Below are positions 1,996 to 64,000 of a DNA stretch of 64,000 nucleotides, piece after piece. The position numbers and the translations under genes were made by a program. The notes beneath the pieces were generated by a model, which searched no databases, was not told the origin of the DNA, and was given only the letters and a program-made list of their open reading frames with translations. The stretch's first letter is position 1; each line of letters begins with the position of its first letter. Where the stretch lies: positions 45,104 through 109,103 of the forward strand of contig JAJTGY010000009.1 of NCBI GenBank assembly GCA_021298015.1. The letters run 5' to 3'. The DNA comes from Flammeovirgaceae bacterium. GTDB lineage: Bacteria; Bacteroidota; Bacteroidia; Cytophagales; Cyclobacteriaceae.

Positions 1996-4446
1996 CTACT
2001 CGGCCGACCCAACCCGGTCATGAATTTTTATTTTACTCAGGTCGATCGCTTCATCCTCTTGTTCACCATAAAAGGCAGGATCAAAATCGTCAATCAACTG
2101 GCGTTCATACTTTGCTTTCTTCGGCTTATCGAACGTCATGATCAGGGCGGGCAACAAAATCAGATTGGTGAACATCGAGATCACCAACGTTACGGACGTG
2201 AGCAGACCGAGCGCCACCGTGCCGCCAAAATCCGAGAAGGCAAAAATGATGAAGCCCGCGAATAACACGACCGAAGTGTAGATGATGCTCTTACCCGTCT
2301 CCAGAATGCTCTCGCTTACCGAGCGCGGCACGAAAAATCCGGTCGCGAGCAATTCCTGCCGGTACTTGGCCAGAAAACGAATGGAGTTGTCCACCGAAAT
2401 ACCAAAGGTGATACTGAAGATCAAAGCTGTGCTTGCTTTCAACGGAATGCCGAAGTACCCCATGAGCCCGGCTGTAATGGCTAGCGCAATCAGGTTCGGA
2501 ATGAGCGAAATGATGATCATGCGGGCATTCGCAAAGAGGATTCCCATGGATAGCGTGATCAGAACAAACGCCCATACCAGGCTCTCGGTCAGGTTGTTGA
2601 TCAGGAACTTGTTACCCTTTATAAAAATCTTAGACGACCCGGTTGTGGCAAAGGAGACTGAATCTTTGTCCGAGCGCAGGTTATTTTTAAGTTCCGCAAC
2701 CAGCGAGTCGGCCCGCGGTTGAATCACGAAAGTGATCAATGAATCCATGCGCTTCGAGCCGATATCGGCCATTTGCATGCTGATGCGCATCTTACGAAAC
2801 GAGGAGTCAACAAATGATTTAAACAGTCCGCTGTTGTCCGTTTGGCCGCGCATGTAGCGAAGGATGAAGGCCGCCTCCTGTTTGCTGGGCAGATCATAGC
2901 GCTCCGGGTTGTTGTTATAAAACCCCTGCTTGGCCGCTTTGATAAAACTAATAACGGAGATCGGGCGCGAGGTGACCGAAATCGAATCGAGGGAAGCCTC
3001 AAACGCATCAATGGCTTCAATATTCTTGAGGTCCAGCAACGGCCGCCTCCGTTTGGTGTGCACCTCAATCACCATTTCCAGCGGCATGATTCCGCTGAAG
3101 TTATCTTCAAAAAAATGAAGATCCTTTTTCACCTGGCTTTCCTCCGGAATATCATCCACCATGAAAGACAGTGCCTGTAGGCGGGTGATACCCACAATGG
3201 CAAAAAAGGTGACGAGGACAGTCGCCACATAGATGTAGACGCGATGGCGGTGTACCAACAAATCAACTGCTTTCACAAAACCACCCAGTATCTTGAAATC
3301 GAGGTGGCGTAGATGTTTTGGTGAAGGCTCCGGCAGCCACGTGAGCATGCCGGGAATCATGACCAGGCTCACAAAGAACAAAGCCAGAATATTGAGGCCG
3401 GCTACAATTCCAAACTCGCGCAAAATGAGAATGTCGGTTGACAACAAGGTGAGAAACCCGATAGCTACCGTCAGGTTAGTGAGGAAGGTAGCCAGGCCCA
3501 TGCGCTGCACCACTACGCGAATCGCTCCTTCCTTGCTTTTGAGTTTGACATACTCTACGTGATACTTATTCAATAAGTAAATCGCATTGGTAATGCCAAT
3601 GGTGACAATGACGGGGGGGATGAGTCCGCTCAGCAACGTGATTTTAAATCCGAGCAGCGCGATGGTGCCTAATGTCCACACCACCATCACGCCAATCATG
3701 ATCATCGAAAAGATCACCGCGCGCACCGAGCGGAAAAACGCCAGCATGATAACACCGGTAACGATCGCGGACAGGTACAGAAACAACGATAATTCGCTGC
3801 GCACCTGGGTGGCCACCACCGAACGTACAAACGGCAAGCCTGCATAATGCAACTCAACACCCGTTCGCGCAGAAAACTGTGAGCCCAGTTCTACCAATCG
3901 GCTGGTGAGCCCGATTCGCTTCTCCGAGTTGGTGTATTCGCCCTTCATGGACACCAGCAACATGGTTGCCCCGTTGGCCTCGTTCATCAATTGCCCCATG
4001 TAAAACCGCTGGCCTTGCGCAATGCGCAACAGACTGTCAAGGTGCGGTTGGGAATCGACCGAATCCGGGAAGAGGGCTGCGAGAAAGAAACGCGTATTGA
4101 CCGTGTCTTTCTGAATGATCTTGAGGGCCGGGAGCGAAATGACCCCGTTAACACCATCCACCTGACCTAATTCGCGGGTGAGCTGTTGAAAGGCTTTGAA
4201 GTTATTCAGCGTATACAGGGCACTGTCCTTCACGCCAATGGCCACCACGTTTCCGTCCTCGCCAAACTGCTCGCGAAACTTGTTGAGGAATACCATGTCC
4301 GGGTCATTGGGGGGCACGGTACGGGCAAAGTCATAGCTCATTTCAACCCGGCTGGCGTAATATGCCATCACCACCGTAATGAGGCCAATGACCACCATCA
4401 GGAGCAGGCGAAGACGAATAATACCGTCAGCAATGCGGAGCCACAT
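1996..4446 (-). CDS. RND-superfamily (MMPL-type) exporter
   Basis: An 816-residue inner-membrane protein with the RND duplicated plan: a first membrane helix near residues 12-30, a large periplasmic loop to about 215, a bundle of five helices to about 370, a second first-helix near 400, a second periplasmic loop to about 620, and five more helices before an acidic cytoplasmic tail. Small-residue-rich helices such as GIPLKASTALIFSITFGISV and the preceding GLIPPVIVTIGITNAIYLLN fit the MMPL/HpnN-like family, which move lipids or hydrophobic molecules using proton flow. No partner membrane-fusion protein or outer-membrane channel is nearby, which fits this single-component subgroup. It is the gene immediately upstream of ileS. 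The substrate cannot be told from sequence. Confidence 0.88.
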   Translation of the reverse strand: MWLRIADGIIRLRLLLMVVIGLITVVMAYYASRVEMSYDFARTVPPNDPDMVFLNKFREQFGEDGNVVAIGVKDSALYTLNNFKAFQQLTRELGQVDGVNGVISLPALKIIQKDTVNTRFFLAALFPDSVDSQPHLDSLLRIAQGQRFYMGQLMNEANGATMLLVSMKGEYTNSEKRIGLTSRLVELGSQFSARTGVELHYAGLPFVRSVVATQVRSELSLFLYLSAIVTGVIMLAFFRSVRAVIFSMIMIGVMVVWTLGTIALLGFKITLLSGLIPPVIVTIGITNAIYLLNKYHVEYVKLKSKEGAIRVVVQRMGLATFLTNLTVAIGFLTLLSTDILILREFGIVAGLNILALFFVSLVMIPGMLTWLPEPSPKHLRHLDFKILGGFVKAVDLLVHRHRVYIYVATVLVTFFAIVGITRLQALSFMVDDIPEESQVKKDLHFFEDNFSGIMPLEMVIEVHTKRRRPLLDLKNIEAIDAFEASLDSISVTSRPISVISFIKAAKQGFYNNNPERYDLPSKQEAAFILRYMRGQTDNSGLFKSFVDSSFRKMRISMQMADIGSKRMDSLITFVIQPRADSLVAELKNNLRSDKDSVSFATTGSSKIFIKGNKFLINNLTESLVWAFVLITLSMGILFANARMIIISLIPNLIALAITAGLMGYFGIPLKASTALIFSITFGISVDNSIRFLAKYRQELLATGFFVPRSVSESILETGKSIIYTSVVLFAGFIIFAFSDFGGTVALGLLTSVTLVISMFTNLILLPALIMTFDKPKKAKYERQLIDDFDPAFYGEQEDEAIDLSKIKIHDRVGSAE

Positions 4447-6381: not shown

Positions 6382-7190
6382 ACAGCAGCCGGTTGGGTAA
6401 TGGTCATCGGATCTTGATTAAGTAAGCGGGTCATAACGCCATAAAGTTCGGGCAACTCCTTTTTAAATGCTGCCGGACGCTCAAAGAAATTTTCCACGGC
6501 AACCGCAAAAAACTCCTGATGATTCGTGCAGGCATAGGGACGAAAGAAGCGAACCCCGCCATCCTCCATTTGCGCACAAACCCGATCGGCCCACTGATCA
6601 AAAACATCCAGCAGCTCAGCATCAAAAAAATCAAACTCATTCACCCGGATAACATTCTGAAGGCGCAGCGCGTGCGCCATTTCATGAAGGCCTACGTTGG
6701 TTGTGCCGGTTGGCTGCAGGTAGCCCATGACAAAGCTGCGCCACGAGAGTACGATGGTACGGTAGGCCGGATTAACCTCACCCCGGTGATACCGTCTGGT
6801 AATCTCTGAATAATAATCATCCGGGTAAATGAGTATGCGGTTGAAGTGCGCCATAAAAACCCGGGGTAACCCAAACGTAAGCTGAACGGCTGAAGCCGCG
6901 ATCAATACCTTCATCTCATCCGTAACGCCACCGAAGTTTCGCGGAATGAAATACTTGGAGAAAATGAAATACACGAGTTTGCGTTCAAACTTTCGCTTAT
7001 GATCTGGTGTCAACTGATTATAGTAGGGGAAATAGTTTTTCAGGATCTCCTTGAACCGCAAGGGAACCGGTGTAATGATTGTGCGCAGGGGAGCCGCGCG
7101 TTTGCCTACATACCGATAGCCCTCCTGCACCTGGTGGCGGTAGTAGAATCCGGCCGCCAGTACGGCCATCGCCAGCAGGCTCAGCCACAT
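6378..7190 (-). CDS. MtfA-like zinc peptidase (M90 family)
   Basis: A 270-residue protein with one N-terminal membrane helix (residues 2-18) and a metallopeptidase domain. The HExxH zinc motif is HEMAH in GLHEMAHALRLQN near residue 168, and the third ligand is probably the Glu in NHQEFFAVAVENFFE near residue 222, as in MtfA. E. coli MtfA binds the regulator Mlc and has weak peptidase activity; here the N-terminal helix suggests membrane anchoring. The gene sits directly after glyS (stop at 7192-7194, start at 7190) and overlaps dgt by 4 bases. The substrate is unknown. Confidence 0.85.
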   Translation of the reverse strand: MWLSLLAMAVLAAGFYYRHQVQEGYRYVGKRAAPLRTIITPVPLRFKEILKNYFPYYNQLTPDHKRKFERKLVYFIFSKYFIPRNFGGVTDEMKVLIAASAVQLTFGLPRVFMAHFNRILIYPDDYYSEITRRYHRGEVNPAYRTIVLSWRSFVMGYLQPTGTTNVGLHEMAHALRLQNVIRVNEFDFFDAELLDVFDQWADRVCAQMEDGGVRFFRPYACTNHQEFFAVAVENFFERPAAFKKELPELYGVMTRLLNQDPMTITQPAAV

Positions 7191-8885: not shown

Positions 8886-9746
8886 ATGATGACTTGGAAA
8901 CGAATAGGGGTTGCGTTGGCCTTATCACCGACAGCCGGTGGTTTATTGCGGCAAGCTGCACACGTAGCCCGGCTGTTTCAAGCCGAATTGTTTATCATTC
9001 ACGTGGGTAACGTTACACCGGAGGCCCGGTTGGCAATAGAAAATCTGGCTGCCACCACAATCGTTGACAATGAGCCGGCTTATCAGTTCTGCTGGGAGAC
9101 GGGTGATCCGGTTTCGAAGGTGCTGGCCGTGTGCAATAAAAACCATATCGATTTACTGGTAGCCGGAGCGTTAAAAAAAGAAAATATTTTCCGTTATTAC
9201 CTTGGCACTGTTGCACGCAAAATCATGCGCAAGGCAAACTGCTCGGTGTTGATGGTAACCAACCCGGGTGAACGGGTCAGCTATCAGCATCTGGTGTTCA
9301 ATGCCGAGGACAGCCCCTACAGCCGGCAGGCCCTTGAGGCCGCGTGTTGGATCGGGCGAAAAGAAAGAAGCAAATGGCTGCACGTTGTGCGCGAGTTGAA
9401 AATGATGGGGCTTGCACTGGCCTCGTCTGACCAATGCACCGAAGAAGAATACCATGATATCCAGCAAAATCTGCTTTATGATGAAATGAGCGAGGTCGAG
9501 AAGATGCTGGCCACCGTGCCGCACGAAGGCCTCAAGGTGAACGTCAAAGTGCTATCCGGTAAATCAGGTTTTGAACTGGCACGATTTGCCGAGCGGAAGT
9601 CGGCCGATCTTTTAATTGTGGCGGCCCCGGAGCGAAGATTTTCGCTTTTCGATCGTGTGTTTCCGCACGATCTGGAGTACATATTTGCTGATTTACCCGC
9701 TCACCTATTGATTGTGCACAGCCGAAAGGAGGCCCAAAATGGGTAA
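8886..9746 (+). CDS. Universal stress protein with two tandem UspA domains
   Basis: A 286-residue cytoplasmic protein made of two UspA units. The first (about 1-135) begins MTWKRIGVALALSPTAGG and carries a nucleotide-loop-like segment AGALKKENIFRYYLG followed by CSVLMVTNP. The second (about 145-286) ends AAPERRFSLFDRVFP and HLLIVHSRKE, also G/S-containing loops. Whether it binds ATP is uncertain because the G-2X-G-9X-G pattern is only partly kept. The ATG pair at 8886/8889 is preferred over an upstream in-frame ATG at 8853. It overlaps the antiporter gene by 8 bases, and Usp domains commonly regulate CPA2-type transporters, so it probably acts with the next gene product. Confidence 0.88.
   Translation: MMTWKRIGVALALSPTAGGLLRQAAHVARLFQAELFIIHVGNVTPEARLAIENLAATTIVDNEPAYQFCWETGDPVSKVLAVCNKNHIDLLVAGALKKENIFRYYLGTVARKIMRKANCSVLMVTNPGERVSYQHLVFNAEDSPYSRQALEAACWIGRKERSKWLHVVRELKMMGLALASSDQCTEEEYHDIQQNLLYDEMSEVEKMLATVPHEGLKVNVKVLSGKSGFELARFAERKSADLLIVAAPERRFSLFDRVFPHDLEYIFADLPAHLLIVHSRKEAQNG
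9725..9732 (+). promoter_or_regulatory. Strong Shine-Dalgarno sequence for the antiporter gene
   Basis: AAAGGAGG lies 6 bases before the ATG at 9739, within the last codons of the Usp gene. Strong Shine-Dalgarno sequences are rare in this phylum, so this supports 9739 as the start and re-initiation on the overlapping pair. Confidence 0.6.
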
Positions 9747-10986
9747 GCTCGAGCAACTGGACGTGATGCTCTTGTTGATTCAATTAGGCATCATGCTGCT
9801 GGCCGGACGCCTGATGGCCGAAGCTGCGCGCAAATTACATCAACCAACCGTAGTTGGCGAACTACTCGCGGGTATTCTGCTGGGGCCCACCGTGCTCGGA
9901 TTGATTTCGCCAGAATGGTTTCACAGCCTCTTTCCTCACGACAGCAACTCCGGTATTGTGCTCTCCGGTATTGTTCAGATGGCCGTAGTGATGCTGCTGT
10001 TTATAGCCGGCCTTGAGGTTGATTTACACATCGTGTGGCAACAGGGGCGACAGGCCATCTACACCAGCGTATTCGGGTTAATTATTCCGTTCGCCTTTGG
10101 CTTTGTAGTTCCGTATTACTGGCCGGGGCTGTTTGGTGGCGAGGCCGAATCCATGCGGCTGCCCTTTGCCCTGTTTCTCGGAACTTCGATGGCCATTACC
10201 GCCCTGCCCGTCATCGCCCGCGTACTGATGGACCTGGGCCTTTTTAAATCACGGATGGGCATGCTCGTGATTTCTTCGGCTATGATCAATGACGTAGTCG
10301 GCTGGTTGATTTTTTCAGTCATTCTGGGATTGATCGGAAAAGGCAACCAGCACTTGTCGCTGGTCAACACCGTGCTGCTTACGATCGGGTTCACTGCCAT
10401 CATGCTCACCCTCGGTCGCGGCCTGCTCAACCGGGTGCTGCCCTGGGTGAATAAAAAACTCGCCTGGCCGGGTGGTGTTTTATCGTTATCGCTGGCGTTC
10501 TGCTTTCTGGCTTCGGCCTTCACCGAGTTCATCGGCATTCACGCGATATTTGGTGCATTCATTATTGGCATTGCCCTGGGCGATTCAGAACATTTTTCTG
10601 AGCGCGCCAAGGAAATCGTGCACCAGTTTATCAATAACATTTTCGCTCCACTGTTTTTTGTCTCCATTGGCTTGCGGGTAAATTTTCTGGCCAACTTTGA
10701 TCCCTGGCTCACCCTGTTTATTTTATTGATTGCCTATGCGGGTAAAATTATCGGCAGCGGACTCGGTACGCGTTTGGGCGGATTCACCTGGCGAGAATCG
10801 CTCGCTGCCGCGTTTGGCATGAATGCCCGGGGTGCCATGGAAATTATACTGGGTCTGGTGGCGCTGGAGAATGGGCTAATCGGTGAACGTGTTTTTGTCT
10901 CGCTGGTGATTATGGCCCTGCTTACCAGCATCAGCAGTGGCCCGGCAATGAAGTGGATTTTGGGAAAAGAAAAATCCGCGGGTTAG
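9739..10986 (+). CDS. Cation:proton antiporter, CPA2 (Kef/Nha-type) family
   Basis: A 415-residue inner-membrane protein with about 12-13 helices and no C-terminal RCK/TrkA domain. Family marks include QPTVVGELLAGILLGPTVLG near the N-terminus, FIAGLEVDL, and the helix pair around ALPVIARVLMDLGLFKSRMG followed by SSAMINDVVGWLIF, where the conserved Asp of the ion pathway lies. Later GIHAIFGAFIIGIALGD and LFFVSIGLRVNF are standard for the family. It exchanges Na+ or K+ for protons; the ion is not determinable. The upstream Usp gene overlaps it, suggesting regulation by the stress protein in place of an RCK domain. Confidence 0.92.
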   Translation: MGKLEQLDVMLLLIQLGIMLLAGRLMAEAARKLHQPTVVGELLAGILLGPTVLGLISPEWFHSLFPHDSNSGIVLSGIVQMAVVMLLFIAGLEVDLHIVWQQGRQAIYTSVFGLIIPFAFGFVVPYYWPGLFGGEAESMRLPFALFLGTSMAITALPVIARVLMDLGLFKSRMGMLVISSAMINDVVGWLIFSVILGLIGKGNQHLSLVNTVLLTIGFTAIMLTLGRGLLNRVLPWVNKKLAWPGGVLSLSLAFCFLASAFTEFIGIHAIFGAFIIGIALGDSEHFSERAKEIVHQFINNIFAPLFFVSIGLRVNFLANFDPWLTLFILLIAYAGKIIGSGLGTRLGGFTWRESLAAAFGMNARGAMEIILGLVALENGLIGERVFVSLVIMALLTSISSGPAMKWILGKEKSAG

Positions 10987-59501: not shown

Positions 59502-61118
59502 ATGAGCGATCAGCCCAATTCCCCCTTTCAGATCAAATTACCGTTGGTTCTATTCATTGGCCTGGCCGCGGGCGTCTTGATTGGCTCAAACATCACCAGC
59601 CGGAAGGCCAGCCCCGGCACCGGGGACGATATGCAAAAACTGCGCGAAGTGCTGGGTTTGATCAAAGAAGACTATGTGGATACAACCAATACGGCACCAT
59701 TGGTAGAGGAAGCCATCAACCTGATGCTGGAAAAGCTTGACCCCCACTCGGTGTACATCCCCGCTTCGGAAAAAGTGCAGGCGAACGAAAGCCTGCAAGG
59801 CAATTTCGAAGGCATCGGCATTGAGTTCAATATTTTTCAGGATACGCTAGTGGTGGTGGCGGCCCTGCCAGGCGGACCGAGCGAAGCTGTGGGCTTGCGG
59901 GCCGGTGACCGCATTGTTAAAGTGAACGATAAGAACATCGCGAGCATCAAACTCACCAACCGCGATGTGCAAAAACTGCTGAAGGGCCCGAAAGGAACGG
60001 AAGTCAACATCGAGGTCTTGCGAAGAGCTTCGCGCACACCCATTCAATTCCGCATTATCCGGGATAAAATTCCGCAGTACTCGATCGATGCCGCCTACAT
60101 GGTGGGGCCAGATGTCGGTTACATCGGGATACAGACGTTTGCTAAAACGACCCACGAGGAGTTTCGCAAGGCGCTTAAAGAACTTCGGAGCAAAGGCATG
60201 AAAAAACTGATCCTCGACTTGCAAAACAACGGAGGCGGATACATGGATCAGGTCATCGCGATTGCCGATGACTTTCTGCCGGCCGGCCAAAAAATCGTGT
60301 ATACTGATGGACAGGAAAAAAAGTATAACCAGGATGCCATCGCCACATCCGAAGGCGATTTTGAACAAGGCGATCTCATTGTGCTGGTAAATGAAAACTC
60401 CGCATCGGCATCCGAGATTGTGGCCGGTGCGCTGCAAGACAATGACCGCGCCTTGCTGGTTGGCCGTAGATCGTTCGGCAAAGGATTGGTGCAACGCCCT
60501 TTTGAGTTGTCAGACGGTTCGGAGCTTCGCCTTACTATCTCGCGTTACTACACCCCCAGTGGCCGCTCCATTCAAAAACCCTACAATGAATATGACAGCG
60601 ACTGGCTTAATCGTTTCAACCACGGTGAATTCTTCACAGCCGACAGCATTAAAGTGAAAGATTCACTTCGTTACAAAACGGCTAACGGCCGAACGGTATT
60701 TGGAGGTGGCGGCATTATGCCGGATTACTTTGTGCCCCTGGACACCTCGAACTCGAGCGCCTATTTCAACAGGCTGTTTCAGGCCAACGTGCTGCGCGAA
60801 TTCGCCTTTAACTATGCCGAACAAAACAAAGCTACGCTGGAGCCTAAAGGTTTCGACTGGTATACCCAGAACTTTGTGATTACCGATGCCATGCTAAACG
60901 AAGTGGTGGCTATGGGAAAACGTAACAACGTGGAACCCGACAGGAAAGACCTCAACAAGAACAGAATGCGCTTCCAGATTTTCCTGAAAGCTGAAATCGC
61001 TTCTCGCGTGTGGGGCCGACCTCAATTCTTTCCGATCTACAACGAGACGAACGAGGCACTTCAAAAAGCCTTGACGCTTTTCGACCGGATACCGGAATTG
61101 GCCGGCAGGAAAATGTAG
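59502..61118 (+). CDS. C-terminal processing serine protease (S41 family)
   Basis: A 538-residue envelope protease. One N-terminal helix (about 12-30) anchors it; LDPHSVYIPASE precedes a PDZ domain (about 90-175: GIGIEFNIFQDTLVVVA, GLRAGDRIVKVND). The S41 domain has YIGIQTFAKTTHEEF, LDLQNNGGGYMDQ, the catalytic Ser in NENSASASEIVAGAL near residue 305 and Lys in GRRSFGKGLVQRP near 330. The C-terminal 150 residues are an extra domain seen in Bacteroidota members. CATCTTTG near 59432 may be its -7 element. Confidence 0.93.
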   Translation: MSDQPNSPFQIKLPLVLFIGLAAGVLIGSNITSRKASPGTGDDMQKLREVLGLIKEDYVDTTNTAPLVEEAINLMLEKLDPHSVYIPASEKVQANESLQGNFEGIGIEFNIFQDTLVVVAALPGGPSEAVGLRAGDRIVKVNDKNIASIKLTNRDVQKLLKGPKGTEVNIEVLRRASRTPIQFRIIRDKIPQYSIDAAYMVGPDVGYIGIQTFAKTTHEEFRKALKELRSKGMKKLILDLQNNGGGYMDQVIAIADDFLPAGQKIVYTDGQEKKYNQDAIATSEGDFEQGDLIVLVNENSASASEIVAGALQDNDRALLVGRRSFGKGLVQRPFELSDGSELRLTISRYYTPSGRSIQKPYNEYDSDWLNRFNHGEFFTADSIKVKDSLRYKTANGRTVFGGGGIMPDYFVPLDTSNSSAYFNRLFQANVLREFAFNYAEQNKATLEPKGFDWYTQNFVITDAMLNEVVAMGKRNNVEPDRKDLNKNRMRFQIFLKAEIASRVWGRPQFFPIYNETNEALQKALTLFDRIPELAGRKM

Positions 61119-61199
61119 TGCCGTTCTCTTCTGCGTTACCCGCAGCCCAGCTTTTCATTGCTGAAATTTCATAATTTGAAGCCATAAAGAACTGAAGCT

Positions 61200-63483: not shown

Positions 63484-63912
63484 TTAAGCTTCAGCGGTTT
63501 TTTTCACATTCACCAAAAACCCAAAGGCAGCCGCAGTAAAGAACATCAGCAGACTGTACACAGCCGGGGGCACACTCATGGTGGCATTGTTAATCACGTT
63601 GAGGGCAATGAAAATCGCCAGCGTGCCGTTATGAATTCCGATCTCCATGCCAATGGCAATAGACTGCCGCTTGTCGATGCCAAACAGCTGCGGCAGAAAA
63701 TAACCCACGGCCATACTCAGCACGTTGAACAACAACACCGGCAACCCGAGTACGCTGAAGTTGTCGATCAGCACCTGCTTCTCGCGCACCGTCACCGAAA
63801 CAATGATCAGGATCAGTAATAAAGAGGAAATTATCTTTACCGGCTTGTCCATTTTAAGCGCGAAAGCGGGTGCTTTGCTCTTGATGATCATGCCCAGGGT
63901 AACCGGCATAAG
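63484..63912 (-). CDS. Bile acid:sodium symporter-family transporter, 3' exon
   Basis: C-terminal 142 residues of a BASS-family membrane protein: LMPVTLGMIIKSKAPAFALK, a helix near SSLLLILIIVSV, the LGLPVLLFNVLSMAVGYFL helix, and the conserved EIGIHNGTLAIFIAL motif with the NV..NN segment. Homologues continue upstream without a break, but here the sequence changes to a group II intron at 63913. The remaining gene (N-terminal half) must lie beyond the intron, outside the window. An open frame continues to 63999, but its first 29 residues are intron-encoded. Confidence 0.82.
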   Translation of the reverse strand, partial: LMPVTLGMIIKSKAPAFALKMDKPVKIISSLLLILIIVSVTVREKQVLIDNFSVLGLPVLLFNVLSMAVGYFLPQLFGIDKRQSIAIGMEIGIHNGTLAIFIALNVINNATMSVPPAVYSLLMFFTAAAFGFLVNVKKTAEA

Positions 63913-64000
63913 ATCGAGTAGGTAAGGGAGAATTTCACTCCCAAACCTCTCACAGAACCGTGCTTGATAGTCTCCCATCACACGGCTCTTCATGATCAAG
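63913..64000 (-). mobile_element. 3' end of a group II intron (domains V and VI)
   Basis: Read on the minus strand. Domain V (63955-63988) is 34 bases: an 8-pair stem GAGCCGTG/CACGGTTC containing the catalytic AGC triad, a two-base AG bulge, a 6-pair stem TGATGG/CTATCA and a GAGA tetraloop. Domain VI follows (63913-63951): GAG pairs with CTC, an unpaired A at 63919 as the branch point, AGGT with ACCT, then GGGAG with CTCCC. The branch A is 7 bases from the 3' end, which reads GAT, the expected AY ending. The next base starts codon CTT of the symporter exon (phase 0). The rest of the intron, including any reverse transcriptase, is outside the window. Confidence 0.88.

Follow-up and report, generated by a model that had tools for sequence, protein, structure and literature searches.

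Does a group II intron interrupt a transporter gene at the edge of this contig, and is the gene still able to produce its protein? The question is raised by one end of the window, by which we mean the whole 64,000-nucleotide stretch analysed here (contig C10, positions 45104-109103, of genome G000). The window stops at 64000 because contig C10 ends there, at 109103, inside the intron. The two halves of the gene had to be sought on either side of an assembly break.

A group II intron end and the two halves of a transporter gene

A covariance search of the whole window with cmscan gave a single match above the gathering score of 40: RF00029, at 63913-63990 of the minus strand (65.5 bits, E 1.3e-10), which covered the model in full (1-77). 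On the minus strand, 63913-64000 constitutes the final 88 nt of a group II intron, as judged from this match and from an empty site in a close relative, described below. Its minimum free energy is -39.7 kcal/mol (z -5.05), and none of 200 dinucleotide shuffles folded equally well. The domain V hairpin (63954-63989, minus strand) carries an AGC triad, a GAGA tetraloop and a 2-nt bulge, AA, and the domain VI helix (63915-63952, minus strand) comes next on the 3' side. Read from the sequence, the triad is the AGC of GAGCC opposite GUUC. In domain VI, the A at 63919 is bulged out and is the predicted branch point; it lies 7 nt from the 3' splice site (...CCU-A-CUCGAU), and the terminus, ...CGAU, fits the AY 3' end typical of group II introns. 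A preliminary description of this DNA, made from the letters alone, had recognized domain V and a domain VI with an A bulged 7 bases from the 3' end; the fold and the Rfam alignment agree with it on both, and the covariance search that it had suggested places the boundary at 63913, as claimed.

Immediately downstream, the 3' exon of an SBF/BASS-type transporter gene occupies 63484-63912 of the minus strand (142 codons and a stop). At the end of another contig, C48, lay both features that the preliminary description had expected if its reading held: the 5' exon, and an intron 5' end of the GUGYG type. There, an open frame runs from ATG to GCC ATT GTG and is followed by an intron start, GTGTGCCCTGAATG, and by further intron sequence up to the contig end. 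The intron portion on C48 spans bases 1-87 of the minus strand, and was taken by collinearity as the first 87 nt of the intron. GTGTG stands immediately 3' of codon 146, at the empty-site base. The 5' exon terminates with ...GTGTTTGCCATTGTG and the first base of the 3' exon is C, so that the exon junction reads ...GCC ATT GTG | CTT ATG CCG.... The interruption is in phase 0: the 5' exon measures 438 nt, or 146 codons, and the 3' exon opens in frame at 63912 with CTT ATG CCG.

Joined, the exons encode a 288-residue protein, with no stops or frameshift. The 5' exon alone matched PF01758 well above the cut-off of 24.3 bits (C48:79-492, minus strand; model 1-142, 96.3 bits), and the 3' exon alone matched it slightly below (C10:108869-109015, minus strand; model 140-189, 23.1 bits). 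Residues 15-279 of the joined protein also resemble SBF/BASS structures (PDB 28sv, 4n7w and 3zux; phmmer E down to 1.3e-30). The preliminary description had exon sequence resuming at a codon boundary of a bile acid:sodium symporter-family gene, and both the PF01758 family and the phase are borne out. Against the bile acid:sodium symporter subfamily model TIGR00841, the joined protein scored 194.5 bits, below the curated cut-off of 326.3, and we therefore keep the label SBF/BASS-type without assigning a substrate.

The closest relative found, Cyclobacteriaceae bacterium MAG-345 (JAEUUC010000006.1, locus L060, whose match coordinates equal those of genome G007), is about 97% identical in DNA at this locus and has no intron there. 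The comparison took in 4000 bases from C48 and 12000 from C10: C48 aligned through base 6438 of the relative and C10 starting from base 6439, with both sides collinear (96.5% and 97.0% identity, respectively). No bases were duplicated or lost at the insertion site, as expected of a group II intron. C48 and C10 are thus very likely joined through one intron, a reading that we draw from collinearity and not from one contiguous sequence. Elsewhere in the compared region, 80 unaligned bases of the window (61117-61196) face about 1.29 kb of the relative (9154-10441); this stretch is flanked by an S41 peptidase gene and a homogentisate-dioxygenase-like gene, and holds a 422-codon frame that looks membrane-protein-like by eye.

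The search for relatives gave a match in 28 of 39 genomes, G000 counted. In all of the best 80 of 366 homologous loci found, a single alignment runs across the junction (residues 139-155) with no inserted residue. Homologues containing the residues encoded at 63913-63999, to which the preliminary description had pointed as evidence against an intron, were absent from these 80 loci, and the empty site of MAG-345 is exact. Moreover, each of 12 orthologues of at least 68% identity gave one match spanning the junction. One of them (G014:C458:28306-29160, 68% identical) has a single in-frame TGA, explained either by a disrupted gene or by an error in sequencing.

State of the interrupted gene

We consider it probable that one intron lies between codons 146 and 147 of a gene that has 288 codons in the closest relative found, that it removes itself from the mRNA and that the transporter is still made. 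Retrohoming or retrotransposition would be the most likely route of insertion. Splicing would then proceed with the bulged A at 63919 as the branch point, aided by a maturase, either the intron's own or one from a related copy; excision by the ribozyme activity of the intron would leave a working spliced message from which the transporter could be translated. On an unspliced message, a ribosome would halt early, at a TAG reached after 19 intron codons.

If the intron splices poorly or not at all, its recent insertion has in effect inactivated the gene, and the product of 146 plus 19 codons would be useless. To what extent do the exons speak to this? Compared with MAG-345, they differ at 28 synonymous and 3 non-synonymous bases (11 and 0 in the 5' exon, 17 and 3 in the 3' exon). 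Polarised with 9 outgroups, 12 synonymous and 2 non-synonymous changes fall on the G000 branch, both of the latter in codon 176, and 13 synonymous and 1 non-synonymous on the MAG-345 branch; 3 synonymous changes are unclear. No relaxed constraint is seen, and by these counts it looks as if the gene is constrained or the insertion very recent. The exon comparison is blind to a recent loss, because a very recent insertion gives the same pattern, and the closest relative found has no intron. Moreover, G000 has a second, intact SBF gene (C49:30960, a 322-aa frame), so that a loss might be tolerated and the host need not depend on the split transporter. Related introns are also found at sites without a spanning open frame of at least 90 aa (6 of the 10 introns placed below). 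However, domains V and VI and both splice-site sequences are intact, the exons carry neither stop nor frameshift, and the changes on the G000 branch stand at 12 synonymous to 2 non-synonymous. We regard inactivation as rather unlikely, though it is the most serious of the alternatives.

A stronger version of the spliced reading is that this chromosomal transporter gene, an ordinary metabolic gene, now retains the intron and depends on splicing, and that the mobile ribozyme acts as a switch of its host gene. Since other introns are present in the genome, the output of the transporter would in that case be tied to the supply of maturase. Such a regulatory role is conceivable, but we hold it to be improbable.

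One intron or pieces of two

The pieces on C48 and C10 could also belong to different elements, for example to a composite or truncated insertion, given that the middle of the intron is absent from the assembly. We found no RVT_1 match in the G000 assembly, which lacks this middle, and no match to the Rfam models of domains D1-D4 on the C48 stretch, which carries only the first 87 nt of the intron. The search proposed in the preliminary description thus yielded the 5' end and the 5' exon but neither a reverse transcriptase nor domains I-IV, the intron middle being unassembled. The EBS loops, expected to pair with the IBS sequences of the exons, would fall in the same missing part.

The genome is also rich in similar sequences: among 239 candidates, of which 150 were scored, at least 18 RF00029-like places were found, each near a contig end. 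Of these, 17 lie at most 12 nt away, and the one on C44 lies 133 nt away. We infer that contigs broke at introns in the way that short-read assemblies behave at repeats. Two of the 18 places, on C10 and C85, belong together as a family, sharing 90% identity over 79 nt. The C85 copy is antisense to a 290-aa open frame and ends 3 nt beyond its stop. The other 16 (L003-L018, on C21, C30, C39, C44, C47, C60, C62, C63, C66, C67, C81, C88, C91, C95, C109 and C110) form a second family, family B, scoring 38-38.6 bits, under the Rfam gathering score of 40. Like the transporter intron, they have an RF00029-like 3' end that ends in CTACTCGAT. Their 3' exons start with T in all 16 cases. For nine of the 16 insertion sites, an empty counterpart was identified in G007; for the other seven, and for the C85 copy, there was no collinear site among the loci listed. 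As judged by eye and from folds, a hairpin and a T run precede seven of the nine mapped sites (L004, L005, L009, L010, L013, L017 and L018) but not L008 and L014. Family B thus appears to be of the class C (IIC) type, for which insertion at terminators is described as habitual in the part of the literature consulted (PMC4424553). At one of its empty sites, three similar copies stand in tandem, about 91-92 nt apart (G007:C9:111088-111374; L189, L192 and L195). In contrast to the mostly post-terminator sites of family B, the transporter intron sits mid-gene. The 40 nt upstream of it fold at -10.8 kcal/mol with no T run, and we rejected a placement after a terminator for it.

Several observations nevertheless argue that the two pieces are one intron. 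Both ends meet at adjacent empty-site bases in MAG-345. A scan of G000 for intron 5' ends with GTGYGCCCNGNATG gave three matches, and the intron is the one on C48, whose sequence was seen once in the genome (two of the three candidates scored). The other two, C10:26411 and C85:25582, are contig-internal and look like ordinary coding sequence by eye. The 5' and 3' pieces, moreover, align to the same lineage. On the other side, the 5' piece (87 nt) had no DNA-level match in 390 genomes of the order except in its own genome, and it folds only slightly better than shuffled sequence (z -1.34, with 18 of 200 shuffles as good). Aligned with nine intron 5' ends of the lineage, it shares GTGTGCC, GA and GATG, invariant in 10 of 10 rows; L177, the start of which reads identically to that of L176, was left out. 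The last 87 nt of the intron matched in 31 of the 390 genomes, G000 counted. The closer 3' ends (L172, L173, L178, L181 and others) are 85-94% identical over 75-79 nt, and introns of this lineage in the order have the same GTGTGCC...GATG start as the C48 piece.

Both ends were placed together in 10 of 13 intron stretches retrieved; in L175 and L184 the 5' end could not be located, and in L182 the sequence stops at a contig end. The 10 placed introns measure 1843-1912 nt (six, full-length), 1393 nt (one) and 651-684 nt (three). Both of the intron-encoded proteins scanned contain RVT_1 and GIIM domains, and D1-D4-2 (RF01999) was detected in five of seven sources scanned, with none in L175 or in the C48 stretch. 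The three short introns, L176, L177 and L179, are too short for a reverse transcriptase and may depend on a maturase supplied by another source. In L172 (G179, oriented 3143-4426), the reverse transcriptase frame extends some 10 nt into the domain V match before reaching its stop codon. Given relatives of 651-1912 nt with both ends together, pieces of different elements seem very unlikely at the transporter site.

Weaker still is the reading of 63913-63999 as transporter coding sequence with an accidental likeness to domain V: the frame is open there, but the Rfam E-value, the lack of these residues in the homologues and the empty site rule it out to near certainty. The open frame itself (171 aa, 63484-63999, minus strand, from the list of open reading frames), which crosses from intron sequence to the 3' exon, is a trap for annotation, as the preliminary description had warned. 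That description had the intron hidden in an open frame, and here a correction is needed. We read it as fortuitous because 29 stop-free codons have a chance of about 0.25, (61/64)^29, and because the equivalent frame (the last 28 codons) is open in only 1 of the 12 related introns compared, a set that includes some near-copies. We thus take the frame across the junction for an accident peculiar to this copy, as far as such comparisons tell.

An intron within a protein gene

In the sources consulted, such a location is described as uncommon. Most bacterial group II introns are described as lying outside housekeeping genes (PMC4424553), which they are said to interrupt seldom (PMC6003770); entry into coding sequences is mentioned (PMC8919778), and the introns reportedly show no preference for conserved sites (PMC2814812). 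Some have entered housekeeping genes, notably in cyanobacteria and in the CL and ML lineages (PMC4424553). As at our locus, the intron there lies inside a host protein gene and, according to the same passage, has to be spliced for the gene to be expressed (PMC4424553); for the transporter intron, in contrast, splicing is a prediction from sequence. Within the lineage itself, the L178 intron splits an IS66-type transposase gene and the L181 intron a DUF4134 gene, and at L176 and L177 an open frame with no Pfam match spans the site. Unlike those introns, the transporter intron sits in a region that is collinear with a relative. Among the open-access papers retrieved, none described a group II intron insertion in a sodium symporter gene, as judged by titles and abstract openings. 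An intron in a bacterial protein gene is thus uncommon but already known from other genes, and this case is unusually well resolved because of its exact empty site.

A fragmented genome conceals such genes, with their halves at contig ends and the tail of the intron readable as protein. Here, a second intron family that is mostly terminator-sited (seven of nine mapped) provides a contrast inside one genome. Moreover, only about 3% divergence separates the filled locus from the empty one, which would allow the burden that a newly arrived intron places on a functioning gene to be examined shortly after insertion.
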